This document shows, one piece after another, positions 5,824-30,903 of a stretch of DNA of 30,943 bases. The stretch is from a virus. A program made the position numbers and the translations under genes. The notes beneath the pieces were generated by a model, which worked only from the letters and a program-made list of their open reading frames with translations, made no database searches and was not told the origin of the DNA. The first letter of the stretch is position 1, and every line of letters starts with the position of its first letter. The stretch is taken from the IMG/VR virus record IMGVR_UViG_3300035698_009463, positions 1-30,943 of that record. The stretch is one strand, 5' to 3'.

Positions 5824-6297
5824 ATGGAAATAGAAAAGAAAGATGTTTTTCAAGAACCCTCTAGTGATTTAGATGCTGATCCAGTTGGAAAGGAATTGTC
5901 AGGACCAACTGATGATATCACTAAGAAATTTTCTGATAAAGTTATAGAAAGAAAAAAACTTAGAAAGGGTGAATATTACGAGTATTGCGTAATGAGAAGA
6001 AACTGTACTAATTTGGGAGCTACTCTTTATCATTGTATTTGGTACGATGGTATTTGGGAAGATGGAAAATTTGACGGTGGGAAATGGCACTCAGGTAAAT
6101 GGATACAAGGTACTTGGAAAAAAGGAATTGACCAAAACAATAAAAGAAGAAACACTCCCCCAAATAAGTGGGAGGAAGAATCTTATGTCTATGGAAATAA
6201 AGTAAACACAGATGTAGACACAGTAATAGAAAGTATACAAGATAAAGTAAAAGAAATCATAACTAAAAATAAAGATGAGATTTACAATGGAAAATAA
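5824..6297 (+). CDS. W/G pentapeptide-like repeat protein (short paralogue)
   Basis: 157 aa. After a polar N-terminus, residues 60-71 read NCTNLGATLYHC. From residue 73 a period-5 repeat follows, each unit of the form [WF]-x-x-G-x: WYDGI, WEDGK, FDGGK, WHSGK, WIQGT, WKKG. This periodicity suggests a small beta-solenoid or pentapeptide-repeat-like stack with an aromatic ladder. A Pro-rich linker (TPPNKW) and a helical C-terminus follow. The next gene has the same NCTN-GAT entry and the same repeat type, so the two are paralogues. RBS AAGGA overlaps the previous stop. The repeats suggest a rigid binding surface; no enzyme motif is visible and the function is unknown. Confidence 0.7.
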   Translation: MEIEKKDVFQEPSSDLDADPVGKELSGPTDDITKKFSDKVIERKKLRKGEYYEYCVMRRNCTNLGATLYHCIWYDGIWEDGKFDGGKWHSGKWIQGTWKKGIDQNNKRRNTPPNKWEEESYVYGNKVNTDVDTVIESIQDKVKEIITKNKDEIYNGK

Positions 6298-7453
6298 TAT
6301 CGAAGAAAAATATGGTGTAAATATCAAAGATTTAATTCTTAATGGTTTAGACGAAAGATCAACAAGAAAAATCTCTGAAATTTTAGATCAGAAAAAAGTA
6401 GCAATTGAGGAAGAAGAGTCAGATGAGGATAACTCTGATGAAGCCTCACTGGCCGAAGGCGATGTATATATGGGATCTAGAGTCAAGGTATTAAAATGGC
6501 TCTTTAAGGCTTTCGGTCCAAAAGAAACCTTTGATCCCAAACAATCAAAATATGAAGATAAGTGGTTTCAAGATGAAATCTTGAATTCAGGACAGACATT
6601 CGTTAGATGTTATTTTGTTAATTGTACCAATAAAGGTGCAACTATGATAAACTGTGCATTTAAGGGTGGAAATTGGTTGGACGGTACATTCAAAGGTCCA
6701 GGTAAGTTTATAAGCAGTTTTTGGAAATCAGGTACTTTCGATGGTGGAATTTGGTATGCAGATTCTGATTGGAAAGGTGGTGCTTGGGTTAGTGGAAAAT
6801 CTGTAGATGGGGAAATTAAGAAAGATGATCCTAACAAGTGGTATCTAGAAAATGTAATAACAAACCCGAAAGATATTAAGAAAGTTAAGAAGTTAGTTTT
6901 GAAAATGAAAAAACTAATTGCTCCTGAAAAGGAATTAGATTCGATGTCAGAATTCATCGAGCAAAATAATGTTATGCCTATGTTTAAAATATTTAATACA
7001 TATGAAAAACGAGCTCAGGGAGAAATAGATACAGAAGATAAAACTACATTAAAAGATCGTGAGGAAGTCGAAGATAGATTGAATATGGAACATAGTGGTA
7101 TTCAAAAAGATAATCAATTATTTATGGATAGGAAAGAGAAATGGGCTAAATCTCAATATGCCAAACTGAACGATGATTTAGCACACGACCCAACTATAAA
7201 TTATAGTTTATTAAAAAGACAATTGGATATCACAATTGACGATCAAAGATGGAAGTGGAACAAAATGATTAATAAAGATTTGTCAGCTTTTGAAAAAAGA
7301 AAGAAAGCTGCATTAAAAAAATTCGATAAGGATAAAATTACTCATTACAAAGATGGTAATTTTACAATGAAGAATTTACTTCTTAAAGATGGTAGACCTA
7401 TAATGAGTCAACTAAGAACAATACTTCAAAAATATACTAGGATAGAGGAATAA
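6287..7453 (+). CDS. W/G pentapeptide-like repeat protein (long paralogue)
   Basis: 388 aa from the ATG at 6287. An in-frame ATG at 6275 would add four residues but lies deeper inside the previous gene. An acidic N-terminal region is followed at about residues 112-171 by NCTNKGATMINC and a run of [WF]xxGx units (FKGGN, WLDGT, WKSGT, FDGGI, WKGGA, WVSGK), less regular than in its upstream paralogue. A DPNKW segment then matches the PPNKW after the repeats in that protein. The C-terminal half is highly charged and probably helical or coiled coil (EEVEDRLNMEHSGIQ, AFEKRKKAALKKFDKD). The 11-nt overlap with the short paralogue suggests coupled translation and perhaps a complex. Function unknown. 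Confidence 0.7.
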   Translation: MENNIEEKYGVNIKDLILNGLDERSTRKISEILDQKKVAIEEEESDEDNSDEASLAEGDVYMGSRVKVLKWLFKAFGPKETFDPKQSKYEDKWFQDEILNSGQTFVRCYFVNCTNKGATMINCAFKGGNWLDGTFKGPGKFISSFWKSGTFDGGIWYADSDWKGGAWVSGKSVDGEIKKDDPNKWYLENVITNPKDIKKVKKLVLKMKKLIAPEKELDSMSEFIEQNNVMPMFKIFNTYEKRAQGEIDTEDKTTLKDREEVEDRLNMEHSGIQKDNQLFMDRKEKWAKSQYAKLNDDLAHDPTINYSLLKRQLDITIDDQRWKWNKMINKDLSAFEKRKKAALKKFDKDKITHYKDGNFTMKNLLLKDGRPIMSQLRTILQKYTRIEE

Positions 7454-8131: not shown

Positions 8132-8779
8132 ATGATACAACCAACAACTAGAAAATATTCAGCTTCGAGAAATTATATATTAGCATTTATGAATCTATTC
8201 AAAGATTTGTATATTGTAAGATATAATGAACAAGATAGTGAAATTAAATACCCTCGAGTTCCTATTGTGTTTCCTTTTACAGAAAAATGGTTCTCTTACA
8301 ATAATGTTTTGTGGGGAACTAGAAAAGATATGAACAAAGAAGCATTATTTGAAATTAGTAAGACTCTTCCTTTAATATCTTTAACAGAGATAGGAATGGA
8401 TTATGCTACTGATTATCAACATAATAAACAAGAAAAGATTTTAAAAAATAATAAAGAATCTTTTGCTCCTGTTTGTTATGATCTAACTCTATCAATTTCA
8501 GTATTCACTAAACTATTAGATGATATGTTTATGATATTAGAGCAAATAGTTCCTTATTTTCCTCCATCATATAGTATAGACGTAAATCCTATAGATGATT
8601 TTTCTGAAACAGAAAGTGTACCGGTTAAAATAACCGGTAGTAGTATCGAAATGCCGGATGCTTTGGATGAAGGAGAAGCTAGAATATTCAAATCTACATT
8701 AAGCTTTTCTATGAAAGTTAATTATTATCCACAACAAACAGATTATACAGCACCTACAATTACAATGGATTTAGAATAA
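8132..8779 (+). CDS. gp15: Tail terminator / sheath stabiliser, gp15-like
   Basis: 215 aa (T4 gp15 is 272 aa). Clear family pattern: an N-terminal helix with FMNLFKDLYIVRYN (T4 'LMGDLFSNIQIKRQ'), YPRVPIVFPFTEKWF ('IRVPITYASKEHF'), ISKTLPLISLTEIGMDY ('ETILPRINLHLVDFSY'), and the strongest block, YDLTLSISVFTKLLDDMFMI followed by LEQIVPYFPPSY ('YELSIFTRYEDDMFQIVEQILPYFQPHF'). The hexameric protein caps the finished tail and binds the neck. It lacks the Pro-rich C-terminal extension of T4 gp15. Its stop overlaps the gp25 start (TAATG). Confidence 0.88.
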   Translation: MIQPTTRKYSASRNYILAFMNLFKDLYIVRYNEQDSEIKYPRVPIVFPFTEKWFSYNNVLWGTRKDMNKEALFEISKTLPLISLTEIGMDYATDYQHNKQEKILKNNKESFAPVCYDLTLSISVFTKLLDDMFMILEQIVPYFPPSYSIDVNPIDDFSETESVPVKITGSSIEMPDALDEGEARIFKSTLSFSMKVNYYPQQTDYTAPTITMDLE

Positions 8780-9144
8780 TGAAAACATTTATAGATATAC
8801 CAAAAAATTTTATAGTTTCACAAAAAGATATTGTAATATATACTAAAGAAGCTAGTATTTTAGAAAGTATAAAAAACATTTTAGACATTGAATTAAATAC
8901 TAAATTTATGGATTTAGAATTTGGATCTCAAGTAAAGACAATGTTATTTAGACCAATGACAAATAGTACAGCACAATTGATAATAAATTTAGTTGAAGAA
9001 GCTATATACGATCAAGAACCGAGAGTAGAAGAAGTTTATACAACAGTAAATTATAGTGATGATGATTATATAAATTTAGATTTAACAATATTCATTGCTG
9101 ACAATAAACAAATAGGATTTAATAATTCATACGATTTAACATAA
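8779..9144 (+). CDS. gp25: Baseplate wedge protein gp25 (GPW/gp25 family)
   Basis: 121 aa, near the T4 length (132 aa). It carries the family signature: SILESIKNILDIELNTKFMD, then a GS.V...LF.P stretch, a helix NSTAQLIINLVEEAI, and the conserved EPR motif at residues 80-82 (YDQEPRVEEV), followed by a beta hairpin. gp25/TssE proteins lie at the junction of baseplate wedge and first sheath ring and help trigger contraction. It is translationally coupled to the gp15-like gene through TAATG and is followed 9 nt later by the gp6-like gene, the usual wedge pair. Confidence 0.94.
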   Translation: MKTFIDIPKNFIVSQKDIVIYTKEASILESIKNILDIELNTKFMDLEFGSQVKTMLFRPMTNSTAQLIINLVEEAIYDQEPRVEEVYTTVNYSDDDYINLDLTIFIADNKQIGFNNSYDLT

Positions 9145-9153
9145 AGGTAAAAG

Positions 9154-12021
9154 ATGGCAGATAATACATTTAATTTCTCATTGAATCTTCTAAAAAATGA
9201 AGATATAAGAGAGGAAATCAAAAGATTTTTCAACGAATATAGAGACATAGATTATCAAGATGGTAACAACATTGGATATATAGTAGATTTTTTATCTAAT
9301 CTAAATATGTTAATGTCTTATCAGCTAACTAATGTTGCAAAAAATATTTCGTTTTCAACTATCATAAAAAGAACAACTGGTGTAGAATTATCTCAAAAAT
9401 TAGGTTATGTTCCTACTAGAAAAGTTTCATCTAAATTGATTGGAACTTTAGTTTTAAATACTACAGATACAGACTTAGCTGGTTCTGACCCTGGTGAAAC
9501 ATTATATTTTCCTACTATAACTTTTTCAGGAGAGGATAATGGACTTTATTTTGAAGCTAATGAGATTACATTAACAAAGGCTTATGCACTTACCGGAACT
9601 CATCTTTATGTCTATAAAGGAAGTTTTATAGCTGAACAAAAAAAATCTAAAACCTACACTACATACGGAACAGGTGATGAAAATCAGGAAGTTCTATTAG
9701 ATTCAATAAAGATTTCAAATAATCCAATTATTACTAAAGTGGATGATGGGGTAGAAACAGTTTGGACTGAATTTAAAGCTTATGATAATATGCCAACTTC
9801 AACTTCCAATATTTACTTTTTAACAGAAAGTGTCGATGATCCATATAAAACAAAGATTACATTTGGTAATGGTATAATTGGTGCTATGCCTAATAATACA
9901 GATACATTAAACTTTGAATATTATGAAACAGAAGGTGAAGATGGAAATGGAGAGACAGGTTTAATTTTTAGAGATATCTTTTATACTGTTGCTAATACTA
10001 AGAAAAATTCATATTCTAGTTCGTTTACTTTTGAAAATATTACATATTCATTTGGTGGTAGATCAGCAGAAACATTAGATGAAATAAAAATAAATGCCCC
10101 TAAATACTTCTCTACTAAGAATAGATTAGTTACCAGATTGGATTATGAAAATCTTATACAAGATATAGATGATGAAAATGTTAAATTTTTCAATGTGATC
10201 GACTTATATTCAAATGATAATTTAACTTATCTTACAAATTTAGGAAATATTTATTTCTCAATAGTACCAGATTCGATGTATTCTGAAAATATAATCGAAG
10301 GATCATCTGGATATATAGAAACTGGGGAAACATTAAGTTTTGATCCTATAAAAACTAATTCAGATATAAAAGATCTGACAATGTCTTCCTTAACAGATTT
10401 GGATGACACCTTTATAAATATTTTAAATAATTTTGATGAAAAATCTATCCTATCGACAAATAGAGTAATAATATCTCCTTCATATTTTTATGCAGAATTA
10501 TATCCTAAAATTGAAGTTAAAAATAGTGTATATGATTTTAATAGTGTTTCAAATGAATTACTTGGGGATTTATACAACGAAATAAAGACAAATAATATGG
10601 GATTCAATAAAGATTTTAGGATGAGTAATCTTGTAGAAATATTAGAAACTGACGATAATATAAAATCAGCAGATTTAGATATAACATATAATTTAATTAC
10701 TTCGTCTGATAATATAATGGATATTATGACTCTCAAATTCCCTGATAATATATTGGAGACTAACGATAATCAAAGAATAAAAGATAATATATTTTCGGAT
10801 ATACCAACTTATACATTAGCTAATATGCCACTAGAGAGAAGGACTGTTTTAGCTACTCTAGAAAACTCCAGTGAATCGTTTGATAGATATTTAGTAAATG
10901 ATAATATCCAAATAATTGAAAGTGCTAATAAAGCAATGGATATAAAAATAGAATATGATACTTCTACTAGTGATTATAAAATAGAGTCTTCAGAATCTTA
11001 TCCAATAATATCTTATGATGGAGGAGTTACTTTAGTAATAGCGGAACATACTTTAGGCAGCACAATTAAATTAAGATATAATAAATATAATCCTACTAGT
11101 GATTATATAACTTACACTCCATCAGCGACTGAGATTATTGATGATATTGTTAATAAATGGTTATTATACATACCATATGGAAATTACTATTATTTAATTG
11201 GTGAGATAATAAGATTTAAATCAAATTCCCAACCAGATGTATATTCAATCGTAACTAGAAGTGTAGACACGAATGCTAGAATTACTTATCTCAATAATAT
11301 TTTTGAAGAACTAGGATTTGAAATTTATGGAGATAAATTATTCCTTTCTAATGTAGATGAAAACTATAATATTAAATTAAGTAACGATGTTAATGATTAT
11401 AGAGTTAAAATACATATATTGAATAATCAAGTTTCGGAGAACATTAATGAAAACTTAATAATAAAGTCTAGAAAGAAAATAGGATATGTATCACAAAATT
11501 TAAAAAATAATACATCGTTTGAAATTGAAGATACTAATTTTTCAGTTACATCAGATAGCTTATCAAAGGTAACAATAAAAGCTTCTGATGCTACTTCAAT
11601 TATATCTATAGAATATATCAATGGACTTTATGAAACTACTACCCTAAATGATTATCCAGCTTTATCAGCTTATACAAATTATAAAGATCAAACATTTACT
11701 TTAGATTATGAATCGGGAGTATATAATTTATACAGTTACGAAACAATTTCCGATACAGCTATTGGGTATCTAGATAGATCTAAGAATGAGTTGGTATTTT
11801 ATTCAAATGTTATTTCAGCTAATGATTTTTTAGATAGTTCTTTTGAAGATTTTATGATAACAGATAATTCAATATTAGATATTACAAAAAATTATAAAAT
11901 AGCTTTTAAATCTAAATACACAATAGAAGAAGATATAGTAAAATATACTAAAGATTTTAACTCAGCTTATAATATTTGTACTTTATATAATATTCATAAA
12001 CCTATATTAAGAGAGATATAA
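9154..12021 (+). CDS. gp6: Baseplate wedge protein, gp6-like (gpJ family), enlarged
   Basis: 955 aa, much longer than T4 gp6 (660 aa). The N-terminus has the gp6/J pattern: a helix covering IGYIVDFLSNLNMLMSYQLT, then ELSQKLGYVPTRKVSSK, like T4 'AAQDNGYLPTSKSA'. FGNGIIGAMP begins at about residue 237, followed by EGEDGNGETG. The block SFGGRSAETLDEIKINAPKY (about 299-318) with RLVTRLDYENLI is the J-family core. gp6 dimers with gp7 form the ring that defines the wedge and transmits the contraction signal. The extra residues are mainly in the C-terminal 400, which are beta-rich and rich in Asp, Asn, Ser and Tyr. RBS AAAGG; stop overlaps the next start (TAATG). Confidence 0.87.
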   Translation: MADNTFNFSLNLLKNEDIREEIKRFFNEYRDIDYQDGNNIGYIVDFLSNLNMLMSYQLTNVAKNISFSTIIKRTTGVELSQKLGYVPTRKVSSKLIGTLVLNTTDTDLAGSDPGETLYFPTITFSGEDNGLYFEANEITLTKAYALTGTHLYVYKGSFIAEQKKSKTYTTYGTGDENQEVLLDSIKISNNPIITKVDDGVETVWTEFKAYDNMPTSTSNIYFLTESVDDPYKTKITFGNGIIGAMPNNTDTLNFEYYETEGEDGNGETGLIFRDIFYTVANTKKNSYSSSFTFENITYSFGGRSAETLDEIKINAPKYFSTKNRLVTRLDYENLIQDIDDENVKFFNVIDLYSNDNLTYLTNLGNIYFSIVPDSMYSENIIEGSSGYIETGETLSFDPIKTNSDIKDLTMSSLTDLDDTFINILNNFDEKSILSTNRVIISPSYFYAELYPKIEVKNSVYDFNSVSNELLGDLYNEIKTNNMGFNKDFRMSNLVEILETDDNIKSADLDITYNLITSSDNIMDIMTLKFPDNILETNDNQRIKDNIFSDIPTYTLANMPLERRTVLATLENSSESFDRYLVNDNIQIIESANKAMDIKIEYDTSTSDYKIESSESYPIISYDGGVTLVIAEHTLGSTIKLRYNKYNPTSDYITYTPSATEIIDDIVNKWLLYIPYGNYYYLIGEIIRFKSNSQPDVYSIVTRSVDTNARITYLNNIFEELGFEIYGDKLFLSNVDENYNIKLSNDVNDYRVKIHILNNQVSENINENLIIKSRKKIGYVSQNLKNNTSFEIEDTNFSVTSDSLSKVTIKASDATSIISIEYINGLYETTTLNDYPALSAYTNYKDQTFTLDYESGVYNLYSYETISDTAIGYLDRSKNELVFYSNVISANDFLDSSFEDFMITDNSILDITKNYKIAFKSKYTIEEDIVKYTKDFNSAYNICTLYNIHKPILREI

Positions 12022-12587
12022 TGATAATAAACCCATTTAAACATATTAATAATTTTATGTCGGTATCTCATTACGATGATTATCCTTCTAACTTAATAAC
12101 ATATTTCGATGGCAAGGAAATTATAAATTGGACAGTCAATGAAGCATCTATTACAGATGTTTGGATAAAAACTAGTTTTGAGGAATCTATTTTGATAGAA
12201 AATCTTAATGTTTATATCGATCCTAGTTTATCTTCATTTTCAGCTATAGAAATTTTTTATAGTATAGATAATATAAATTGGACACAAGTAGTATTCAATG
12301 GAAAAAATCTATTTACTGAATTTGCTGGAACAGAAACAGAAATAGAAATAGAATTCGATGAAGTATCGACAAAATACATAAAGGTAGTATTCACTAATAC
12401 TACAACACTAAAGATAATAAATCTAACAGCTTCTATATATGAGTTTTTTAATGATTTGAAAGTAAAAGATATAATTGAAAGATATCTTTTCCACGATTAT
12501 TATAATAATATAAACAGTAGTTTTAAAGATACTGATTTAGGTAATATAGTAGAAAGTTATTTATTAATGTTATATCCAGAGGAATAA
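12021..12587 (+). CDS. Baseplate-region protein with an F5/8C (discoidin)-like beta-sandwich
   Basis: 188 aa. Residues about 30-135 have the rhythm of F5/8 type C or galactose-binding jelly rolls: INWTVNEASITDVWIKTSF, a strand IENLNVYID, IEIFYSIDNINWTQV (typical 'y.vqYS.Dg..W..v'), and a late strand KYIKVVFTNT. The last 50 residues look helical (VKDIIERYLFHDYY). The gene is wedged between gp6-like and gpI/gp7-like genes with a one-base overlap upstream and one spacer base downstream, so it is probably a wedge component. Such domains often bind sugars or proteins, but no ligand residues can be assigned. With the next ORF it fills the position of T4 gene 7. Confidence 0.5.
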   Translation: MIINPFKHINNFMSVSHYDDYPSNLITYFDGKEIINWTVNEASITDVWIKTSFEESILIENLNVYIDPSLSSFSAIEIFYSIDNINWTQVVFNGKNLFTEFAGTETEIEIEFDEVSTKYIKVVFTNTTTLKIINLTASIYEFFNDLKVKDIIERYLFHDYYNNINSSFKDTDLGNIVESYLLMLYPEE

Positions 12588-15316: not shown

Positions 15317-16768
15317 ATGACAAAAAGATTAGAAATAGGATATGAACAAAACATCCAAGATATTAAAACGTATTTTAATTCTTTGTTAACTAGATTAGAT
15401 AACAAAGGATATAAGAATTATTTTACTAATAGTAACTTCTATCAAGAAATTGTAGATAGTAGTTCAGATGATGTTATATTTGGATGGTTAGACACCGATG
15501 ATACTTCTGTTGATTTATCAGATAGTAAATTTGAGAAATTAGTAGCACCAAATGAAGGAATCTTTCAAGCATCTTTAAAAGACGATGAAGGAGTAAAACA
15601 AGAAGTAGAAATTACTGAAATGGATGTAGATAATAATAACTATACATATACTGTTTCAATTATATATGCTTCAGATTATACAATAGATATTCAACTCATA
15701 AAAGAAGAAGCGGTTCCTTTTGAAATAACAGAAACTTCTGAAACAACAGATATATTATCTACATATACTTACAATGCAGTTACTTATAATATAAAACAAA
15801 CTACAAAAGTTTATTATCTGAGTGATGTATCAACTCTATTTCCAACTACAGTGAATACATTCTCTGTAAATTTCTTTGGGTCAGAGGCTACCTCACAAGA
15901 TTATATTATGTTAGATTCTTTTGCATATTTTGGAAAAGCAGATTTATCTTCATTGGTTTATAATAAAGAAGCATTTATATCTGCTACAAGATATAATAGC
16001 GGAAGATGGGAAATCACTAATGATGGAATTAGTTATAATCCGTTCGGTATCTCAACTTTTTATAGTGTTGGTACAGGTGGGGATTATGCAACATTAGACC
16101 TAGCAATAGATGCTGGACATACATATTCTAATTTTTATTTCATTAGTGATGTTACATTATCAACTTCAAAAACATTACCAATCGGAACAACTATACTAGG
16201 AAACAGTAGGACATTAACAATAAGTGGTTCGGATGTTAGTTTAACCATAGGATCGGAATTTAATATTAAAGATTTAGAAATTCATTGTAATTCAACTTTC
16301 TCATCCCCCAATGTAGTTGCATCAGCACCAATATATTTATCAAGTATAACAGGACAGAGAGGAATATTTGAAAATTGTCATTTTTATACAATTAGTAACG
16401 TAACTAGTAGTATGATTGGAGCATATATAGTAGAAGATGTTCACTTTATAAATTGTCAGGCATTCGGTCAAATAAAATATATAATTAGGGGAGAAAGAGT
16501 AGATTATTGTAATTTTGAATTTACTCATATCAACGCACTAGGTTATCATAATGGTGGTGTAGATTTGACAGGATATGGTTTCTATTTGACAAATTCAGAT
16601 AATAATAAAATATACATAAATGAGTTTCAATCCGTGAGAAATTATTATGGATCAGGACTTGCTGCACCAACAACTGGAATAATAACATATATGAGTTTGA
16701 CAACTTCAGATGATAACGATATTACGTGGTTAGCTGAAACTCTATCAATAACATATAGTGCACCATAA
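15317..16768 (+). CDS. Tail fibre/spike protein with one beta-helix domain
   Basis: 483 aa. Residues 1-245 form a polar N-terminal region, presumably the baseplate attachment. From about residue 250 a VGTGGDYATLDLAID motif opens a right-handed parallel beta-helix-like domain: short strands with IGTTILGNSRTLTISGSDVS, IKDLEIHCNS and FENCHFY, and Asn-rich turns, as in pectate-lyase-type phage spikes. No catalytic residues can be assigned, so the domain may bind or degrade a surface glycan. The following gene holds two more copies of this module with the same opening motif. RBS AGAGAGA. It is transcribed with the gp8-like gene. Confidence 0.7.
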   Translation: MTKRLEIGYEQNIQDIKTYFNSLLTRLDNKGYKNYFTNSNFYQEIVDSSSDDVIFGWLDTDDTSVDLSDSKFEKLVAPNEGIFQASLKDDEGVKQEVEITEMDVDNNNYTYTVSIIYASDYTIDIQLIKEEAVPFEITETSETTDILSTYTYNAVTYNIKQTTKVYYLSDVSTLFPTTVNTFSVNFFGSEATSQDYIMLDSFAYFGKADLSSLVYNKEAFISATRYNSGRWEITNDGISYNPFGISTFYSVGTGGDYATLDLAIDAGHTYSNFYFISDVTLSTSKTLPIGTTILGNSRTLTISGSDVSLTIGSEFNIKDLEIHCNSTFSSPNVVASAPIYLSSITGQRGIFENCHFYTISNVTSSMIGAYIVEDVHFINCQAFGQIKYIIRGERVDYCNFEFTHINALGYHNGGVDLTGYGFYLTNSDNNKIYINEFQSVRNYYGSGLAAPTTGIITYMSLTTSDDNDITWLAETLSITYSAP

Positions 16769-16788: not shown

Positions 16789-18654
16789 ATGGCAGTAACA
16801 AACAAATCAATAATAACAGATGGATCTTCTCTTAGAAACAATGTTGATATAAATGACCCAAATAGAACTATGACTATTGGAACGCCAGGAGATGTTATAA
16901 TAAAACATAAGGAAACCTTAGTTGTTGGAACAAATATAGATACTACAACTGGAGATGCAGATCATTATATTCCTATTACTACAGAAAGTTTATCTAATCT
17001 AGCTTCAACAGATAATGACCTAAAATTATTAACCTCTAGTGCTATTCAAACAGCTATTGTAGATAATAGTATAAGAGTTCCAAATCTTGTGTCAGTAGGT
17101 GTGGATGGAGATTATCTAACATTAGATGATGCAATAGATGGGATCCCGTCTAATAACTACATAATAAATATAATAGATAGTGAAATTACCTTATCAACTG
17201 CTAAGTCATTACCACAAGGAACTCAATTATGGGGTAATGGAAATAGATTAACAATAACTGGAGGTTCATTAACACTTCTTTCTTATTGTAATATAAAAAA
17301 TATAGATATTTACACAGAGGATAAGATAATATTATCTGGTAATTATATAAACATTGAAAATAGTTCAATTTGGGCTACAGCTGGAGAATCTGGAGGTTCA
17401 GTTATATATGCCAGTGGAGATTATACTAATATGAATAATGTAAGGATAGATAATCAATCTTTACAACACTATACTTTCGATATTACATCCTCAGACAATG
17501 GTACATATACAGACATTGAAGTTTTTAATGTTGGAAGGAATAACGCGGGTGCAATATCTAGTAAAATAATTAATATGAACAACAGTAACCACAATAAATT
17601 TGAGATAACATATGCTCATAATGAAAACATATCAGGTATAATTGTTAGTATCTCAGTAATCTATTTTGAAGGATCAACTTGTGATAATAATACCTTCAAA
17701 GTATATAAACAAGATTTCTCAAGTTCTGGTGGAGGATCTTTATCAGTTAGTTCAGTACTAAATGGAGGAGGCGTTGGGGATTATAACAAATATAATTTCT
17801 TAGATATGTATGAACATTCAACATATGGATATACTATAGAAACTACCGATGAAATATTAAATATAAAAAAGATAGTAACTGTTGGAGTAAAAGGTGACTT
17901 CGCAACTTTCACAGATTTGTTATCATCTGGTTTCATAGCAGATTTTAGAGAAATTTCTTTATTAGAGAACACTACTTGGGACACAACAACATATAATCTA
18001 TTACCTAGTAATTGTGTCATAAATGGCAATGGATACACATTAACAACATCCGGTACTAATAATCCTGAGACTGGCGGAAATTTTTTGATAATTAAAAATA
18101 TAGTAATAGCTTTGGGAGTTAATACTCACGTATTTGAACTAGCAAATAATAATATATCAATATATGATAGTACAATAACAGCTAATGGTAGTACAGCATC
18201 TACATATACTACAGCAGTTACTAATTGTGTATTAAATATAGATTCTAATGTATCAACAATAAAAAATGTTACAATAGACGCAGGTAACGTTCGACAAAAT
18301 GGTGTTGTTTTTGATGGTTCATATTGTAATTTCGAATTTAATAGGATACTTAATTGGGGATATGACCAAGCTACATATACCTCAGGAGAAACTGAACTAG
18401 CCGGAGTTTTCGTTAGCGGTGTAACTCTTTATAATAAAATAGAAATATTGTATTTAGCCTCTGATTTAACTGCATATGCAACAACTTGCACAGATTATGC
18501 TTACGGAATTTATAATGTTATTACTGGGAGTACTTATAATTATTGGACAATAAATCAATTCACATTAACAAATTTTACAGTGAGTCCAGCTCAAACTAGT
18601 GGTTTTTATACTATATCACCAAATGCTCATAAAACAGTGACATTTATAGCTTAA
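16789..18654 (+). CDS. Tail fibre/spike protein with two tandem beta-helix modules
   Basis: 621 aa. A roughly 100-residue N-terminal part (GDADHYIPITTESL then SNLASTDNDLKLLTSSAIQ) resembles short fibre segments that join helices to baseplate proteins. Two beta-helix-like modules follow. The first starts at about residue 102 (VGVDGDYLTLDDAID, with LPQGTQLWGNGNRLTITGG), the second at about 362 (VGVKGDFATFTDLL, with LPSNCVINGNGYTLTTSG). Both share the opening and the 'LP-G...GNG-[RY]-LT' segment with the single module of the preceding gene. This suggests internal duplication and possible receptor-range evolution. No chaperone or endosialidase tail is visible. The gene is followed by a strong terminator. 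Confidence 0.7.
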   Translation: MAVTNKSIITDGSSLRNNVDINDPNRTMTIGTPGDVIIKHKETLVVGTNIDTTTGDADHYIPITTESLSNLASTDNDLKLLTSSAIQTAIVDNSIRVPNLVSVGVDGDYLTLDDAIDGIPSNNYIINIIDSEITLSTAKSLPQGTQLWGNGNRLTITGGSLTLLSYCNIKNIDIYTEDKIILSGNYINIENSSIWATAGESGGSVIYASGDYTNMNNVRIDNQSLQHYTFDITSSDNGTYTDIEVFNVGRNNAGAISSKIINMNNSNHNKFEITYAHNENISGIIVSISVIYFEGSTCDNNTFKVYKQDFSSSGGGSLSVSSVLNGGGVGDYNKYNFLDMYEHSTYGYTIETTDEILNIKKIVTVGVKGDFATFTDLLSSGFIADFREISLLENTTWDTTTYNLLPSNCVINGNGYTLTTSGTNNPETGGNFLIIKNIVIALGVNTHVFELANNNISIYDSTITANGSTASTYTTAVTNCVLNIDSNVSTIKNVTIDAGNVRQNGVVFDGSYCNFEFNRILNWGYDQATYTSGETELAGVFVSGVTLYNKIEILYLASDLTAYATTCTDYAYGIYNVITGSTYNYWTINQFTLTNFTVSPAQTSGFYTISPNAHKTVTFIA

Positions 18655-18938: not shown

Positions 18939-21813
<2,875 letters not shown>

Positions 21814-21814
21814 A

Positions 21815-24406
21815 ATGTTAAATAAATTACCTGGTGTATATATTAAAGAAACAAACTTAGTTCAACAAACCCAAGAAGATCCGGGTTTCGTTCCTGTTGT
21901 TGCTATGTTACCAGCTGAAACAGGATATGCTAATGAAAACACTATAGTATACGACCAATTAGATTTTATAAGTAAGTTTGGATATCCAACTGAATATAAT
22001 TTTAAATACTGGTTTAATATTTATAACTATCTAGGATATTTTAATTACATTAATGTAATGAGAGTCATTGATCCTGATACTCACAAAAATTTTTCATTAT
22101 TATATGACGATACATCAGTAACTAATAATTCACTTTCAAATATTTATAATTATAATATGTCTATTGATAATTTAACTACTTATGATATAACTGGAGATTA
22201 TAAATTTGAAATATTTAACAGAAAGATATCAAATTATGATGATATAGCTGTTAGTATATGTTCATCAGAAGACTATTATGAAGAACCAATATCTATTGAA
22301 ACATTGGATGAATATATAATAAATGATAGTTTATACATCCCTCCTTCTGTTTATTCATTGAGTAACGAAGATAAATATATAATAGATAATAATAAATTAG
22401 CAATAACTTTAATTGCCTTAGGTGTAGGGGATGTATTAGAAATAACTGTTAGTGAAGATATAACAAATGATGTATCAGCTTTAGATTATATAAAAATAAC
22501 AAACAGTGGATACACACTATCTACTGCTGGGGCTCTAGATACAATAGAAATGTTTAGAATCGTAAGTGTTGTATATACAACTAGTACATTGATAACTTTA
22601 GCTGCATATGCCGGAGAAACATTAAGTAATGATGGGACAGGATATGGCTATATAAACTATTCAACTGACCTATGGAACACTAGTACAAATAATGAAGGAA
22701 TAGTTGCAGAATTTTCTGCATCCATTGTGGATATATACGATATTAAAACTAATTCCTCAAATGTAACTGAAATAACAATATTAGGAGATTACACAGCTGA
22801 TATCTTATTAAATGGATATATCTATATAGTTGAAAATAATATACAAGGGACACAAGGAAAATATCTAGTGAGTGCTAATTCAACTGTATCTAGTGGATAT
22901 ACTACAATATTACTATATGAAGATTTAGAAATAACTTCTATATCAGGTTCTGTTTTAATAGATTCAACTATTGCTTGGGCAATATCAAATGTTGTAGCGG
23001 ATACTTCTTATTATGTAAATAATAGAGAAACTGAATATTCTTTAGTTAGTGCAGTTTGGACAAAATCTTTATTGGAACTTAGTTATGTAGTATATGAAGG
23101 AGTTGTTCACAGAAAGATGTATGATTCATATACTCAAAATTCTAGAACTGGTACCATAAAATCTTTTAAGGCTTTGATAGGAGAGAATGTAAATTTTGAT
23201 AATGAGATAGTTTTAATTGTTCACAAAAAGGGGTATAATCAAACCTTCTTCACATCTACTGAATTTTATGTTGTTAGTTTAGAATCTAGTAATGTAATAA
23301 GAGATAAAAATAATTTTTGCGAAAATATAATAAATGAAAAGTCTAATTTAATTTATTTTAGACTTGGGGATATGACTAATGTTACTATCCAAGATATGAA
23401 AGTAGATACTTATGATGGTAGTTTAATAGATTATATAATAGAAGATACTGATAGTTACGATTATGATAATATAAAAGATTATGACTTATATTATTCAAAA
23501 AGTAGCTTTTATAGAAATAATAAAAATATAGCATTTTCATATTTCTTAGGATTGGAATTAATAAAAACTATAAGTGCAGTAGAACACGACACTATGAATT
23601 TAGCTAGTATTATAGCTGCAGAAAGGGAAGATATAATTGCTATCATATCTCCTTGGGATGAATCTAGATATCTGAATTTAACTGAAACTCAATATGCAAC
23701 TAAAATAATAGAAGATTTTGGATGTAACAGAACAGAAGATAGTTTATATTTCAGTGAATTTAGTACTTACTCAGCAATATATAATAATATGAAATTAGAT
23801 CTTGACAAACTAAATTTAAAATATAGATGGTTACCATTGATTGGTGATATAGCCGCAATTTATGTAAATGAGGATATTTATAATTCAGAATTCTCAGCTC
23901 CAGCTGGATTATCTACATTAGGAATTAAAAATATATCTAAACTTCTTTTTTCTACAGATGATGAAGATTTATCTAACGAACTAATCTATAATTCTATAAA
24001 TAATATTGTAAGAGATAACATAACTAGAAGTTATATTTTATTTGATATTCTAACAGCTACAGATGAAGATTTGCTAACAAGTAGATTGAATATAAGAAGA
24101 ATGGTAAATTATTTAAAAAGAAGACTTAATGTTTATTTAAAAGCTTATTTATTTAAAGAAAATATTCCATTGACAAGATCTGATATATCAAATGGTTTAA
24201 ATAGTATATTGTCTGATATAAAAGCAAACAAAGGAATTACTGATTATGAAGTTATATGTGATGAAAGAAATAATTCATCAGTTACTGTTAATAATGAGGA
24301 GTTAATAATCAATATTGCAATTAATCCAATAAGAGTAATAAGACAAATATTTATAAACATAGATTTAGTAAAGAGCACAATAAATATAACAGAAATTGAA
24401 ATATAA
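21815..24406 (+). CDS. gp18: Tail sheath protein paralogue 1 (gp18-like)
   Basis: 863 aa from the ATG at 21815, one base after the terL stop, with GGAG at 21806-21809. An in-frame TTG at 21800 is an unlikely start. The N-terminus KLPGVYIKETNL is the classical sheath start. DFISKFGYPTEYNFKYWFNI follows, and YRWLPLIGDIAAI begins near residue 670. The C-terminal block (LNIRRMVNYLKRRL, RSDISNGLN, DYEVICDERNN and the last strands) is the conserved polymerisation domain. Two beta-modules sit at about residues 224-268 and 315-372 in the inserted region. Its position directly after terL matches gene 18 in T4. It is more diverged from paralogues 2 and 3 than they are from each other. Confidence 0.88.
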   Translation: MLNKLPGVYIKETNLVQQTQEDPGFVPVVAMLPAETGYANENTIVYDQLDFISKFGYPTEYNFKYWFNIYNYLGYFNYINVMRVIDPDTHKNFSLLYDDTSVTNNSLSNIYNYNMSIDNLTTYDITGDYKFEIFNRKISNYDDIAVSICSSEDYYEEPISIETLDEYIINDSLYIPPSVYSLSNEDKYIIDNNKLAITLIALGVGDVLEITVSEDITNDVSALDYIKITNSGYTLSTAGALDTIEMFRIVSVVYTTSTLITLAAYAGETLSNDGTGYGYINYSTDLWNTSTNNEGIVAEFSASIVDIYDIKTNSSNVTEITILGDYTADILLNGYIYIVENNIQGTQGKYLVSANSTVSSGYTTILLYEDLEITSISGSVLIDSTIAWAISNVVADTSYYVNNRETEYSLVSAVWTKSLLELSYVVYEGVVHRKMYDSYTQNSRTGTIKSFKALIGENVNFDNEIVLIVHKKGYNQTFFTSTEFYVVSLESSNVIRDKNNFCENIINEKSNLIYFRLGDMTNVTIQDMKVDTYDGSLIDYIIEDTDSYDYDNIKDYDLYYSKSSFYRNNKNIAFSYFLGLELIKTISAVEHDTMNLASIIAAEREDIIAIISPWDESRYLNLTETQYATKIIEDFGCNRTEDSLYFSEFSTYSAIYNNMKLDLDKLNLKYRWLPLIGDIAAIYVNEDIYNSEFSAPAGLSTLGIKNISKLLFSTDDEDLSNELIYNSINNIVRDNITRSYILFDILTATDEDLLTSRLNIRRMVNYLKRRLNVYLKAYLFKENIPLTRSDISNGLNSILSDIKANKGITDYEVICDERNNSSVTVNNEELIINIAINPIRVIRQIFINIDLVKSTINITEIEI

Positions 24407-24421
24407 AAGACAGGATTAAAA

Positions 24422-26833
24422 ATGATAAATAAAAAATACAACCCAACAATGACTTTTACTGAAACTGAAGTTAGAAATCCAGTAAGGGAAAAACTTGGGG
24501 AAACAACAACAGGGATGATACTAGGTTCTAATTCCGGATTTGCTGGAATCCCAACTAAGATTTCAACAGAAAAAGAACTAGTTCAATTATTTGGTGAACC
24601 AACTGACTATAATTATAGAGATTGGTTTAATGCAGCTGGATATTTGAATTATGCTTCAAATTTATATGTTGTGAGACCATTTAGTTCAACTTGGGAAAAT
24701 GCAGGTGCAGAAATTTCTCATTTATCAACTACGGTAGGTATATCAGGAGTTATGAAATCAGATTTGTATAACGAAGAAATTGCAGAGGGAACTTTAAATG
24801 ATGATATAACTTTCTCAGACACAGATAATACAAAACTTAAAATCTACAATAAATTTGTATCCACAAAAGATGATATTGCTTTTGCAATAGCAGGAGATGA
24901 AACAAGCTTTGGGAATTACATATCTAACGATGTAAATAACTTTACTATAAAAGAAACAACTGTTTATGCCTTAGCTCCAAGTATAGTTGATTATCTTCAC
25001 GGAGATGGTGTTGTTATAAAACCTATAATATCAGGTTCAACAGTAGTAAATACAATAACAATCCCTTGGTTATCAGATGCTCCTGTAGTTTCTGATGAAG
25101 GAGCTTATATAACAATAACAGGAACAGGTATTGTTGTAGGTACTGATATTAAAATTGGTGATTTGATTGAAATAAATGGGACATACTGGCCTATATTAGA
25201 TATAGAGACTGGAGTTTTAACAATCCAAGATACTGGTGATCCTTGGGCTATTCCAGTTATTGACACAGACCACGATACATATTTAGGATTTAATTTAGTT
25301 CTAAAAGCAGATAAAATAAATAATGTTTGGGTTGAAAATACAAACGCGTTTATAAATGATGAAGTAGTGTACGTAACTAGTGAAAATAAATATTATACAT
25401 ATGACACTGTAACATATAGTTTTGCAGAAGCAAGTACATCTCTTCAATCAGAAAAAACAGTTGTTGTAAAAGATGTTACAACTGGTTTAATTGATTATGT
25501 TGTTAGACAGAATATGAATTCGATATATTATAATAGTGACAAGACTCCTTATATATTCTCTGACATTTTTAACTATACTCCTGATTGGGAAAATAAAGAA
25601 GTGGCTTTAATAATCTTTAAGAAAAATTCAGATATTAATCTTTTTGAAATTGTGGAAACTTTTGTAGGATCATTATTAGAAAATGCTAAAGATAGTATCG
25701 GCTATAGTTCTTATATAGAAAAACTTGTTAATAAGAAATCAAACTATATTTATTTAAAAGCTAGAAGTGCAGCTGAGATCACAGCTTGGGAAACAACTCA
25801 AAGTGCAACATATGGTTATAATACAAACTTATCGACAAATACATTTAATTTAAAGCAAACTACTTTAACAGATTCAAATGGAACAATAACAGATTATTCA
25901 CAAACAGCAGATGATGTTACAGGTGGATTATCAACAACTAATTTAATAACAGCTAGTGAATTCTTTGGTCTTAGTGGTGTTATGAATCCACATATTCTTT
26001 TAGGATTCGATAACTTGAGAACAGCTGGTTATCTTAACACAATGCCTCAAATCGCAGAACAAACCGGTATGAGTTTAGCACTTGTAGGAATTTGGGATAT
26101 AGGTTCAATGGGTACTTATATAGAATCTAGAAAAAACACAACAGTTTTATCTTTATTAGGAAATAATAGAGAAGAACCTTCTGTTGGAGCATTAACTGAA
26201 TTTAATGATTGGACAATGGTATTTGGAAACTTAAAAAGAATTAAAGATTCTTATAATAACATAAATAGATGGGTACCGGTTATTGGAGATATTGCAGGAA
26301 AGATGACATACAATGATTATATAAATGGTTCACAAAGTCCAGTAGCAGGAATAAAAAGAGGTTTGTTAACTAATTTTGATAAATTACTTTTAAAGAACAC
26401 TGATGAAAATGAATTCTCAAAGAATGGTATAAACTCAATCATATACGATAACGAATTAGATATCACTATGATTTTCGATTATATAACTAATACATTAAAA
26501 GATCTTATTGTTAGAGAAGCGAATATCAGAAGAATGATTATCTCAATCAAACATTTTTTAAAGAGAGTTTTAAAAGGTAATTTCTTCGATTTCAATAACA
26601 CAGCAACAAGAAACTTGACATTATTTAATATAAGTACAGTATTTTCTTACTTTAAATTAAATGGTGGATTGTTTGATTATGAATTAATTTGTGACGAAAG
26701 TAATAATACACCAGATCAAATAAATCAAAACAATTTTATATTAGATATTAAAATACAGCCAAATCGTACAATTAAATATATTTATGTGAATATAGTTAAT
26801 TATGATATGGGATTAGATATAAAAGAATTATAA
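24422..26833 (+). CDS. gp18: Tail sheath protein paralogue 2 (gp18-like)
   Basis: 803 aa. The N-terminus contains MTFTETEVRNPVREKLGET, then LVQLFGEPTDYNYRDWFNAA; the core RWVPVIGDIAGKMTYNDY begins at about residue 616, and the C-terminus has NIRRMIISIKHFLKR, FNNTATRNLTLFN and DYELICDESNN. All are sheath hallmarks. It is the closest relative of paralogue 3: the N-terminal 100 and C-terminal 350 residues align nearly without gaps, and a 111-nt block is 96% identical. The inserted region (about 180-330) is unlike that of paralogue 3, apart from a beta-module at about 227-272. It has no promoter of its own and only 15 nt upstream, so it should be co-transcribed with paralogue 1. RBS AGGA. Confidence 0.92.
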   Translation: MINKKYNPTMTFTETEVRNPVREKLGETTTGMILGSNSGFAGIPTKISTEKELVQLFGEPTDYNYRDWFNAAGYLNYASNLYVVRPFSSTWENAGAEISHLSTTVGISGVMKSDLYNEEIAEGTLNDDITFSDTDNTKLKIYNKFVSTKDDIAFAIAGDETSFGNYISNDVNNFTIKETTVYALAPSIVDYLHGDGVVIKPIISGSTVVNTITIPWLSDAPVVSDEGAYITITGTGIVVGTDIKIGDLIEINGTYWPILDIETGVLTIQDTGDPWAIPVIDTDHDTYLGFNLVLKADKINNVWVENTNAFINDEVVYVTSENKYYTYDTVTYSFAEASTSLQSEKTVVVKDVTTGLIDYVVRQNMNSIYYNSDKTPYIFSDIFNYTPDWENKEVALIIFKKNSDINLFEIVETFVGSLLENAKDSIGYSSYIEKLVNKKSNYIYLKARSAAEITAWETTQSATYGYNTNLSTNTFNLKQTTLTDSNGTITDYSQTADDVTGGLSTTNLITASEFFGLSGVMNPHILLGFDNLRTAGYLNTMPQIAEQTGMSLALVGIWDIGSMGTYIESRKNTTVLSLLGNNREEPSVGALTEFNDWTMVFGNLKRIKDSYNNINRWVPVIGDIAGKMTYNDYINGSQSPVAGIKRGLLTNFDKLLLKNTDENEFSKNGINSIIYDNELDITMIFDYITNTLKDLIVREANIRRMIISIKHFLKRVLKGNFFDFNNTATRNLTLFNISTVFSYFKLNGGLFDYELICDESNNTPDQINQNNFILDIKIQPNRTIKYIYVNIVNYDMGLDIKEL
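25975..26085 (+). repeat. Near-identical sheath block, copy 1
   Basis: 111 nt matching 28406-28516 in the same orientation with only four mismatches (at 26008, 26014, 26015 and 26017). The last 68 nt (26018-26085) are identical. It encodes the core GVMNPHILLGFDNLRTAGYL and the following residues. A second block, 26568-26613 against 29002-29047, differs at one base in 46. Confidence 0.95.
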
Positions 26834-26836
26834 ATA
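26829..26836 (+). promoter_or_regulatory. T4-type late promoter core TATAAATA overlapping a stop codon
   Basis: Exact TATAAATA that includes the TAA stop (26831-26833) of sheath paralogue 2 and ends 34 nt before the ATG of paralogue 3. A strong AAGGAG RBS is at 26857-26862. It gives paralogue 3 its own late transcript. Confidence 0.65.
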
Positions 26837-26870
26837 ATAGAAAAAGAAACATTAACAAGGAGTTAAAATA

Positions 26871-29270
26871 ATGGCAAATAAACAAGTAAGCCCTTTTATG
26901 GCTTTTACTGAAACTGAAGTTAGAAATCCTATCCAACAAAAATTGGGTTCGACAAATACTGGTATGATATTACCAGCTTCAAATGGTCCAGCAGGAAGTC
27001 CTATCAATATTACAACTGAAAACGAACTTGTTGATATATTTGGAAAACCAAGCGCAGGGAATTATAGAGATTGGTATAATGCAGCAGGTTATTTGAAGTA
27101 CGCTTCAAATTTATATGTTGTAAGACCAATTAAAACAACTTGGGCAAATTACGGTATAATGTTAGACATTACAGATCCAGCTGATATGGTTGCACCTGAC
27201 AGTTTAACAAATATGTATAACAAAGAAATAGCTCAAGATACTTTAGATGCAGCGGCAGATTTAGCTAGTAATGAAGTATTGGCATTCTACAACAAATATA
27301 TTAATAAGAAAGATGAAATAGCAGTATTAGTTTGTGCGAAAGATGATGATTATGAAGAAAGAATTACAGCAGATTCGATAACAAACTACGTTTCATCATT
27401 AACAAGATATACAGGAGCGGGAGCAGTAACAATTCTTCCAGCACCTTCTACTATTACTCACGGAGATGCATATATAATTTCTGCAACCTATGATACTGGA
27501 GTAGTAACAAATGGTAAAACATATACAAATGCTTCTGTATCAGCTACAGCAGGTGTTTTCACATTAACTTCGGCTAGTACATTAGTTGCAGTAGGTCAAG
27601 GGATAGTTTTCATCCCGACAGCTGGAACAGCAACATCATATACTATAACAGAAGTTACAACCGGTACTTTCACAGTAAGTGATCTAACAGCTGCAGCTTC
27701 AGGAGTTAATATAGATGTATATAACACTCTAATGGAAGCTGAATTAGCAAATGGTGACGAAACTATAACAGATTATCACATTATGACAATGAACAAACTT
27801 GGAACTTATAATGATTGGACATTAAGTGCAGTTCTTGTAGCAGGAGTTGATATTTATAACGCAGCTGATAAAAATGTTTGGACATTTGTTGCTGGTGCAA
27901 CAGATACAGCAATAACTTATCAACCTAAAGATTTCACTATTCACAAAGATGCTGATACTTTATTAATAGATTATGTTGTAGCAAAATATCTTGGGTCTAG
28001 TTTATACAGAAGTGATAAGAAGCCAATTAAATTCTCAGACGTATTTTCAACTAAGCCTGATTTCCTAGCGAATGAACTTGGTGTTATCGTATTGAAGAAA
28101 GATGGTATTGGTTACTGGCAATTAGTAGAAAACTTTATTGGTTCTTTCAATAGTTCAGCTACTTATCCATCAGGATTAAGTAAATTTATTGGAAAACAAG
28201 TAAACAAAAATTCAAATTATGTTTATTGTAGAGCACAACCAGGTTATACTGGAACATTCTCAACTAAAGATTATTCAGTTAGAGATATGGTATTAGTAGA
28301 TGGTAATTCAGATGTGGTAGATTATTCATATACTACTGATATGACAGTTACTTATGGATTGAGTACATCAGACTTAGAAACAGCAACAGAGTATTTCGGT
28401 CTCAATGGTGTTATGAATCCACATATTCTTTTAGGATTTGATAATCTTAGAACAGCTGGTTATCTTAACACAATGCCTCAAATCGCAGAACAAACCGGTA
28501 TGAGTTTAGCACTTGTTGGTGTTTGGGATTCAGTAGGAATTGCTGGTCAGACAGACGCAACCATAAATCAAGCAATAATTGATTTATTAGGAAATAAAAG
28601 AGCTGAGCCTTCTGTTGGAGCTTTAACAGAATTCAATACTTGGACAATGGCGTTCGGTACTCTTAAATATGTATATGACCAATATAACGATACACATAGA
28701 TGGGTTCCTGTAATTGGTGACATAGCCGGAATGATGACCTATAATGATTTCACAAACGGTCCTCAGAGTCCTGTAGCGGGTATCAAAAGAGGTATCTTCA
28801 AAAATTATGAAAAGTTGATATTCAACGGAAACTACGACCAAAATGAACTTTCTAAAAACGGTATCAATGCAATCGTTTATGATTATGACATCGACGGAAC
28901 AATGGTATTTGAATATATCACTAATACATTAGAAGACCTTATTGTTAAGGAAGCAAATGTTAGAAGAATGATTATTGCGATAAAGCATTACTTAAAGAAA
29001 ATTTTAAAAGGTAATTTCTTCGAGTTCAATAACACAGCAACAAGAAATTTAACATTGTTCAACATCTCAAAAATATTTACTTATTTCTTGGGTAATGGTG
29101 GATTGTTTGATTATCAGTTAATCTGTGACGAGAGCAATAACACTGATGAAAGAATAAATCAGAACGAGTTTGTATTAGATATTAAACTACAACCTAATAG
29201 AATAATCAAGTATATTTACGTTAATATAATCAATTATGATATGGGATTAGATATAAGAGAAAATGTATAA
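26871..29270 (+). CDS. gp18: Tail sheath protein paralogue 3, probable major sheath (gp18-like)
   Basis: 799 aa. It starts MANKQVSPFMAFTETEVRNP; LVDIFGKPSAGNYRDWYNAA follows. The core RWVPVIGDIAGMMTYNDF begins at about residue 610, and the C-terminus has NVRRMIIAIKHYLKK, FNNTATRNLTLFN and DYQLICDESNN. The inserted region (about 180-370) is rich in Ala, Thr and Gly and carries a beta-module at about 228-273. Of the four sheath genes only this one has both its own late promoter and a full AAGGAG RBS at ideal spacing, so I infer that it is the most abundant sheath subunit. T4 gp18 (659 aa) is shorter; the excess lies in the insertion, which should face outward. Confidence 0.93.
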   Translation: MANKQVSPFMAFTETEVRNPIQQKLGSTNTGMILPASNGPAGSPINITTENELVDIFGKPSAGNYRDWYNAAGYLKYASNLYVVRPIKTTWANYGIMLDITDPADMVAPDSLTNMYNKEIAQDTLDAAADLASNEVLAFYNKYINKKDEIAVLVCAKDDDYEERITADSITNYVSSLTRYTGAGAVTILPAPSTITHGDAYIISATYDTGVVTNGKTYTNASVSATAGVFTLTSASTLVAVGQGIVFIPTAGTATSYTITEVTTGTFTVSDLTAAASGVNIDVYNTLMEAELANGDETITDYHIMTMNKLGTYNDWTLSAVLVAGVDIYNAADKNVWTFVAGATDTAITYQPKDFTIHKDADTLLIDYVVAKYLGSSLYRSDKKPIKFSDVFSTKPDFLANELGVIVLKKDGIGYWQLVENFIGSFNSSATYPSGLSKFIGKQVNKNSNYVYCRAQPGYTGTFSTKDYSVRDMVLVDGNSDVVDYSYTTDMTVTYGLSTSDLETATEYFGLNGVMNPHILLGFDNLRTAGYLNTMPQIAEQTGMSLALVGVWDSVGIAGQTDATINQAIIDLLGNKRAEPSVGALTEFNTWTMAFGTLKYVYDQYNDTHRWVPVIGDIAGMMTYNDFTNGPQSPVAGIKRGIFKNYEKLIFNGNYDQNELSKNGINAIVYDYDIDGTMVFEYITNTLEDLIVKEANVRRMIIAIKHYLKKILKGNFFEFNNTATRNLTLFNISKIFTYFLGNGGLFDYQLICDESNNTDERINQNEFVLDIKLQPNRIIKYIYVNIINYDMGLDIRENV
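28406..28516 (+). repeat. Near-identical sheath block, copy 2
   Basis: Partner of 25975-26085, offset 2431 bases. It lies inside sheath paralogue 3 at the equivalent codons and in the same reading frame. Confidence 0.95.
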
Positions 29271-29280
29271 AAGGAAATAG

Positions 29281-30903
29281 ATGACATCTATTAAATTTAC
29301 AGAAAATTCTTTTCAGAAAACTACAAAAGATAATGTGAGCGACAATCATTTAGAGATTGTCGCACCATTATTATTCAGTTATAATTACGGAAGATATCCA
29401 GTGACACTGACATCTATCTCTGAACTAATTAGAGAATTTGGATATCCAACAGATAGTAATTATAGAGAATGGTTTCAAGTATATAATTTCCTTAATTACA
29501 GCGATTCTATAGATGTAGTAAATCCAACAACAGAGGAGATAGCAAACACTGTTCTTTCTTATAAAGGGATAGTAGTTCCTCCGGTTACATATGTAACAAG
29601 TTTTTATAATCCGACTATAAAAGATTTAGATTTAATTATACCGGATGATACAGAAACATTGAAAGTAGTAGAAAAATATCCTAATATGACAGATACTAAT
29701 TTAGCTGTTTTAATTTGTGGATTATCTACAAAATGGACTGAACCTATTTCAGTTGAGACAACAACAATATATAATGAGTTTTATCAAACAGGAACAACTG
29801 TAGTTTCTTGGAATGATTTATTCACTACAAAACCAGATTTTGATAATTCAGAATTCGCAATGCTTGTTGTTAGGAAAATAGGAGATTATTATGAATTTCA
29901 AGAGAGATGGATTCTTTCTTTAGATTCCATAAGTTCTAAATATGTTGGTACGTTAAATGACGATTCTAAATATGTTTATGCTAAATATGGAGATGATTTA
30001 ACTTCATATATTGACACTAGTGAAATGTCATTATTATCTTGTGTGTTTGTTCCTGATACTTCAATAACAGAACAAACTGTAGCTGAAATGTATAGTGACA
30101 CATTCGATGAAATAGATTTAGAAGCTTATAATATTATGATAGGATATGTAACAAATCCTTATATTTCAATAGATGAGTGCACAACAAAATTTACAAATAG
30201 TAGTTGTGTTTGTATAACAGGATTATATGACGAAACAAGATACTCAAATATGGATACTAGATTAGAAGATATTATAAATGATGTTGGGTTATTCCCAACA
30301 ACCAGTTCAGGATATTTTACAGATTTTCATTCTAATATTTTTATAACAGGTAATATCAAAAAGCAATATGATGAATTTAATGATACTTATAGATGGTTGC
30401 CTTTATTTGGTGATGTAGCTGGTTTGATGGATATCAATTATTTGGAAACTAGTATAGCAGGATTTAAAAGGGGTGAGATTAAAAATTGTAGCAAATTATT
30501 AATTTATCCTAGTGATAGTCAATCAACTTTATTAGGAAAAAATTCAATCAATCCTATTATTTATGATAGAGATTATAATGGAAAATTTCTTTTTGGAGAG
30601 AAGACTTGTGAAGAAATTGAAATTAAATTTAAGTATATAACAAATAGAATAACTCATAATAAAATAGAAACTACAGTATCTGGATATATAACAAATTCAG
30701 GCATAACAGATACTGAACCAAAGAATGTAGAAAGGATATTAACCAAAACAAGAAAATTATTGAATTATTATAAAACACTTGTGAAAATATCTGATTATAC
30801 CATTCAATATACTATAAATAATAATGAGGTTGAGTATAGTTTAAGTATAAACTATCCATCAACTATAAACGAAATAACAATAAATATAATTTATAAAACA
30901 TAG
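29281..30903 (+). CDS. Short, divergent tail sheath paralogue 4
   Basis: 540 aa. The sheath plan is still visible: LIREFGYPTDSNYREWFQVY, a short domain, DTYRWLPLFGDVAGLMD from about residue 369, SIAGFKRGEIKNCSKLLIY and NPIIYDRDYNGKFLF. The large beta insertion of the other three is missing. The C-terminal domain is altered: the [NV]-x-RRM helix, the 'NNTATR' strand and the '[YF]-x-[LV]-[IV]-CDE' strand cannot be found, and a different Thr/Lys-rich region (FKYITNRITHNKIETTV) stands there. It may be a capping or baseplate-proximal variant rather than a bulk subunit. It ends with TAG, the only non-TAA stop in the window. RBS AAAGGA. Confidence 0.78.
   Translation: MTSIKFTENSFQKTTKDNVSDNHLEIVAPLLFSYNYGRYPVTLTSISELIREFGYPTDSNYREWFQVYNFLNYSDSIDVVNPTTEEIANTVLSYKGIVVPPVTYVTSFYNPTIKDLDLIIPDDTETLKVVEKYPNMTDTNLAVLICGLSTKWTEPISVETTTIYNEFYQTGTTVVSWNDLFTTKPDFDNSEFAMLVVRKIGDYYEFQERWILSLDSISSKYVGTLNDDSKYVYAKYGDDLTSYIDTSEMSLLSCVFVPDTSITEQTVAEMYSDTFDEIDLEAYNIMIGYVTNPYISIDECTTKFTNSSCVCITGLYDETRYSNMDTRLEDIINDVGLFPTTSSGYFTDFHSNIFITGNIKKQYDEFNDTYRWLPLFGDVAGLMDINYLETSIAGFKRGEIKNCSKLLIYPSDSQSTLLGKNSINPIIYDRDYNGKFLFGEKTCEEIEIKFKYITNRITHNKIETTVSGYITNSGITDTEPKNVERILTKTRKLLNYYKTLVKISDYTIQYTINNNEVEYSLSINYPSTINEITINIIYKT

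Follow-up and report, generated by a model that had tools for sequence, protein, structure and literature searches.

The contractile sheath of a phage is usually regarded as a single protein repeated along the tail. In T4 gp18, inserted domains lie on the tail exterior and the C-terminal part builds the lattice, and in known sheaths the N- and C-terminal arms connect adjacent subunits. Phages with more than one sheath protein have nevertheless been described. Phage PaBG has a two-component sheath (Kurochkina et al. 2018, as cited in PMC7412058), and both of its sheath proteins are listed in its structural proteome. Alexandravirus has two sheath proteins (PMC9686651), and three gp18 ORFs of Campylobacter phage vB_CcoM-IBB_35 were detected by mass spectrometry (PMC3322345). 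In the open-access papers searched, the maximum found was two sheath proteins per phage (PaBG and Alexandravirus) and three gp18 ORFs (the Campylobacter phage). The eCIS Afp (Afp2-4) and PVC (Pvc2-4) encode several sheath paralogues, with a bulk protein and minor ones (PMC12961389). An initial annotation of the DNA described here had pointed to such eCIS as contractile systems with several sheath proteins, and the PVC baseplate structure 6j0n agrees, as it contains Pvc3 and Pvc4 as minor components of six chains each beside the bulk protein Pvc2.

The window analysed here is a whole IMG/VR virus record, a 30,943-base fragment with a GC content of 0.287, and it ends 40 bases past the last of four neighbouring sheath genes, named S1-S4. 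A T4-like tail module on a single strand encodes a gp48/54-like tube cap, a gp53-like protein, a gp27-like tail protein, the head-closure protein Hc2 (gp14), gp15, gp25 and gp6. It is followed by several genes without assignment, then by the large terminase gp17, and finally by S1-S4 up to the contig end:

8132..8779, + strand: gp15-like tail sheath stabilizer, contractile-tail context (phrog_227, 9.2e-37)
8779..9144, + strand: gp25-like baseplate wedge subunit, context (phrog_43, 2.3e-14)
19510..21813, + strand: large terminase (gp17) with intein, upstream neighbour of S1 (Pfam PF03237, 3.5e-22; intein domain, 1.4e-4; alignment to the terminase of a second phage, G001)
21815-24406, + strand: S1, class I sheath paralogue, 863 aa, directly 3' of the terminase gene (phrog_23, 1.6e-41; PF17482, 3.8e-10)
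24422-26833, + strand: S2, class II sheath paralogue, 803 aa, with S3 as its youngest relation (phrog_23, 1.1e-34)
26871-29270, + strand: S3, class II sheath paralogue, 799 aa, candidate bulk sheath protein (phrog_23, 7.3e-41; fold, 1.6e-22)
29281-30903, + strand: S4, class III sheath paralogue, 540 aa (phrog_23, 7.6e-25; fold, KP1 9.1e-23 and T4 gp18 2.2e-22)

As the gene order in T4-like phages is gp17-gp18-gp19, the four sheath genes occupy the slot of a single gene 18. Terminase and head-closure genes are encoded on the fragment, which therefore belongs to a phage and not to a headless eCIS particle. The terminase is interrupted by an intein-like insert of ~153 aa (19822-20280), located after QSRQSGK of the ATP-binding loop and before the next T, and the G001 terminase has an intein-like insert at the identical site. 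Elsewhere in the window, two adjoining proteins (15317-16768 and 16789-18654) have a 'VG..GDYATLD.AID' segment in common and resemble paralogous fibre-type or beta-helix proteins, with no match for either in family searches. Another adjoining pair (5824-6297 and 6275-7453) has a common Gly/Trp-rich repeat-like stretch (RxNCTNxGAT...FxGG.W..G.W), possibly from a tandem duplication.

All four genes encode gp18-family sheath homologues. The initial annotation had read the neighbouring genes of 863, 803, 799 and 540 aa as sheath genes and had proposed profile searches and structure prediction as checks, and both bore it out. The ORFs are all intact, occupy the + strand from the terminase gene to the contig end, and each of them matches the phrog_23 'tail sheath' profile, over nearly its full length in S1-S3 and at positions 63-434 of 496 in S4. 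With an upstream TTG start instead, S1 would measure 868 aa. The sheath C-terminal domain PF17482 was above cut-off in S1, S2 and S3 and was not found in S4 by the Pfam search; the S4 model retains the C-terminal helix pair and beta hairpin. As described before, the RW[LV]P..GD[IV]A core is present in all four proteins, and RRM and CDE..NN in S1-S3 only. The N-terminal 'FG.P....Y..W' segment, likewise claimed for all four, occurs in this form in S2-S4, and S1 carries F in place of Y (FGYPTEYNFKYW). Structures were predicted for S3 and S4, and the phrog_23 match strength of S1 and S2 is comparable to that of S3. The AlphaFold model of S4, made from a 20-sequence alignment (mean pLDDT 68, pTM 0.62), is matched best in the PDB by tail sheaths, including those of KP1 and T4. 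The S3 model (pLDDT 57, with the outer insertion at ~169-354 at very low confidence) matches the same proteins, so that both predicted folds match solved phage sheaths best. The profiles, the folds and the second phage rule out chance or misannotation of four sheath genes.

This second phage was found in an IMG/VR scan as a 61-kb contig (IMGVR_UViG_3300033153_003434, G001) whose sheath genes likewise number exactly four and which has a single gp19-type tube gene, placed between C and D:

G001 sheath copies: A, 787 aa (near the terminase); B, 767 aa; C, 611 aa; D, 827 aa

Additional genes interrupt the G001 copies, so the sheath set has been kept although the spacing has not. In front of C, an HNH-like gene (30558-31520) opens with a copy of the C start, with AGAAATACTATAAGTT and the peptide NRNTIS in common, and looks like an insertion trace at the gene start. 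A short third contig (G003, IMGVR_UViG_3300033148_003281) is a near-copy of G001 and carries A and B; its copy B (10277-12577) lies in two frames (439 and 312 aa), reflecting either a sequencing error or a real break. The split of B on this contig, and the fact that both phages come from metagenome contigs only, might suggest an assembly artefact or decaying duplicates. Yet the window holds four intact, closely spaced ORFs, the same set is found on an independent contig, and dN is below dS in all pairs compared (with dS near saturation), making such an origin highly improbable.

The eight copies form one clade in the tree (support 98/99). S1 pairs with A (100/100; class I) and S4 with C (100/99; class III), while S2, S3, B and D constitute class II (100/100), with S2 and S3 as its youngest pair. 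A topology grouping all of S1-S4 together is rejected (p 8e-7), and class members of the two phages have 28-46% BLAST identity. As the tree pairs copies across phages, at least three classes predate the split of the two phages. Within class II, one-to-one orthology of S3 with B and of S2 with D was tried and rejected (p 0.007 and 0.0005, respectively); D lies outside S2, S3 and B (95-99% bootstrap), with the alternative B+D pair not rejected (p 0.066). The S3 branch is the shortest among the eight. No relative turned up in scans of genome collections with the alignments of classes I and II, and a viral scan with the sheath C-terminal domain added, among the matches listed, only distant single-sheath loci.

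Divergence is unevenly distributed along the proteins. S2 and S3 are 51% identical overall. In S3 numbering, their identity falls from 79% in the C-terminal domain (686-799) through 58% for the core to 27% over the insertion (170-380), and the other class II pairs display the same gradient. The C-terminal domains of S1 and S4 are 33% and 23% identical to class II, respectively. The outer insertion spans ~279, 199, 210 and 9 residues in S1, S2, S3 and S4, and is thus longest in S1. Since the insertions of T4 gp18 are external and the insertion lengths differ here, S1-S3 would, by analogy, share an inner lattice with different outer faces, with S4 left bare. In the alignment, the CDxxNN loop seen in the remaining sheaths is missing from both S4 and C. 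S4 is moreover without the last C-terminal strand, and C without the N-terminal arm. With the linking arms partly lost, class III would suit a ring at the lattice end or a protein gone from the lattice. That class III, having lost the loop and one arm each, may sit outside the lattice speaks against a sheath composed of all classes. It could be speculated further that the sheath is built by class II (S3 and S2) only, and that S1 and S4 have been repurposed, for example as a collar at the neck or baseplate or as an assembly factor. Their distance from class II in the C-terminal domain, the missing loop and last strand of S4, and the missing N-terminal arm of G001 C would agree with such roles, but both proteins retain the sheath core motifs, S1 has a complete C-terminal domain, S4 has a predicted sheath fold, and no match points to another function, so we consider this rather unlikely. 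Finally, columns of the C-terminal domain sort by phage more often (7 to 5 vs 14 to 67 elsewhere, Fisher p 0.004; small numbers, chosen post hoc), which would fit co-evolution within one lattice.

A separate promoter had been proposed for the third paralogue. As a sigma-70 promoter it was rejected, since a sigma-70 scan found 86 sites vs 85.7 expected, nothing over chance. A T4 late-promoter element was put in its place:

26829..26836, + strand: TATAAATA, T4-type late-promoter element, 42 nt before S3

A perfect copy of TATAAATA, the T4 late-promoter element, also precedes G001 B (by 39 nt) and T4 gene 18 (by 36 nt). Among the sheath copies, only S3 and B have the perfect element, and S2 has AATAAATA at 43 nt. 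The count in the whole window is at chance level (16 vs 14.3 expected), so the position of the element, not its number, is informative. It is found 20-60 nt upstream in 10 of 59 genes on the two contigs, exceeding each of 55 other anagrams, with none for its reverse, which suggests that the lineage uses T4-type late promoters. Individual occurrences at 2524, 5146, 13404 and 26829, and many in G001, are located 25-51 nt before gene starts.

Translation signals were compared as well. The excess of G/C-ending codons is highest in S3 among 23 genes (z 3.29) and in B among 27 (z 3.23), and the strongest ribosome sites of the sheath genes belong to S3 (AAGGAG) and B (AGGAG). As a control of the codon measure, gp23 came first and gp18 second among the T4 genes; for Campylobacter phage NCTC12673 a high rank was obtained by the capsid protein but not by the sheath, and codon bias is thus supporting evidence only. 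Taken from sequence signals, this favours S3 (and B) as the abundant bulk sheath copy. It also favours unequal amounts of the paralogues, which the initial annotation had supposed. Alternatively, the genes may be alternative or dosage copies, with one main kind per tail depending on host, timing or surface exposure and with outer domains swapped between virions. The low identity of S2 and S3 in the outer insertion (27%) vs the C-terminal domain (79%) is in line with this. However, three classes are retained in two phages, the genes lie close together on one strand, and the expression signals indicate one main copy and minor ones, leaving exchangeable copies a quite improbable explanation.

A heteromeric sheath, as put forward initially, is the best reading because the signals of unequal amounts are combined with a shared lattice and differing outer surfaces. 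On balance, the window probably carries an expanded gene-18 locus of a T4-like lineage, in which one contractile sheath is built from several paralogues. The homology of all four, the predicted folds of S3 and S4, the conservation of three classes in the second phage, the uneven divergence and the expression signals stand as observed, whereas the presence of S1-S4 in the virion, their ring stoichiometry and their ring positions are inferred. Duplication would have given rise to at least three old sheath classes. S3 (class II) would form the bulk rings around the tube, and S1, S4 and possibly S2 would replace S3 in special rings, with the baseplate and neck ends as their most probable sites, such that the paralogues use a common inner lattice and present different outer faces. 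A fifth sheath gene, the orthologue of G001 D, is possible beyond the contig end, because G001 has D behind its tube gene and only 40 bases of the window remain past S4. Tentatively, the sheath might even consist of four, perhaps five, different subunits whose rings follow a fixed order, in which a bulk protein is joined by end rings specific to each class and the outer faces vary, although we hold this full version to be doubtful. The retention of three old classes in one lineage suggests that ring identity may be sequence-encoded, as in eCIS, and the locus offers a natural system for studying what determines the order of rings, how a lattice of mixed subunits contracts, and what purpose differing outer domains have.

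The premise of a single sheath gene in most myoviruses was borne out by the sets tested, with the two-component sheath of PaBG as an already known exception. Among the matches listed, 234 other loci, some of them overlapping pieces of one record, have exactly one sheath ORF, and the loci with more are all pieces of G001 or G003. A whole-record profile search of 80 sheath-bearing T4-like contigs (up to 212 kb long; a sample set with many fragments, in which paired matches are two parts of one frame) found one gene each. By profile search, T4, P-RSM4, OspM_OC, RaK2, Atu_ph07 and SCTP-2 also have one sheath gene each, and RaK2, SCTP-2 and Atu_ph07 were thus rejected as multi-sheath jumbo phages. 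PaBG has two full sheath genes, and a third match of 34 positions is marginal. Campylobacter phage NCTC12673 (NC_015464) has four tail-tube family matches, vs one in G001 and three in T4, and a single sheath gene; it multiplies tube-type genes instead of sheath genes.

Compared with known systems, S1-S4 are like T4 gp18 in family and fold, in the slot after gp17, and in TATAAATA before gene 18, whereas T4 has one sheath gene at the place where four are found here. PaBG is similar in encoding paralogous sheath proteins in one phage, but it has two copies, far apart in the genome, which pair together in the tree at a distance from the S1-S4/A-D clade and reflect a separate, independent duplication. 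The related Campylobacter phages CP21 and vB_CcoM-IBB_35 also have more than one gp18-type gene; those of CP21 differ in that they look like one full and one split gene at distant places, on a single long branch in the tree. Afp and PVC are not phages, and their sheaths, of 354-451 aa, are only distantly alike. Still, PVC is the nearest solved case for the proposed sheath with S3 in bulk and the other paralogues in special rings. Judged from genes alone, the feature that unites PaBG, Afp and PVC as heteromeric sheaths, at least two encoded paralogues, is found here with four, and with four in G001. Four sheath genes in one phage would thereby represent a new variant, going beyond the known two-component sheath of a phage (PaBG) and the three-component sheaths of eCIS (Afp and PVC).
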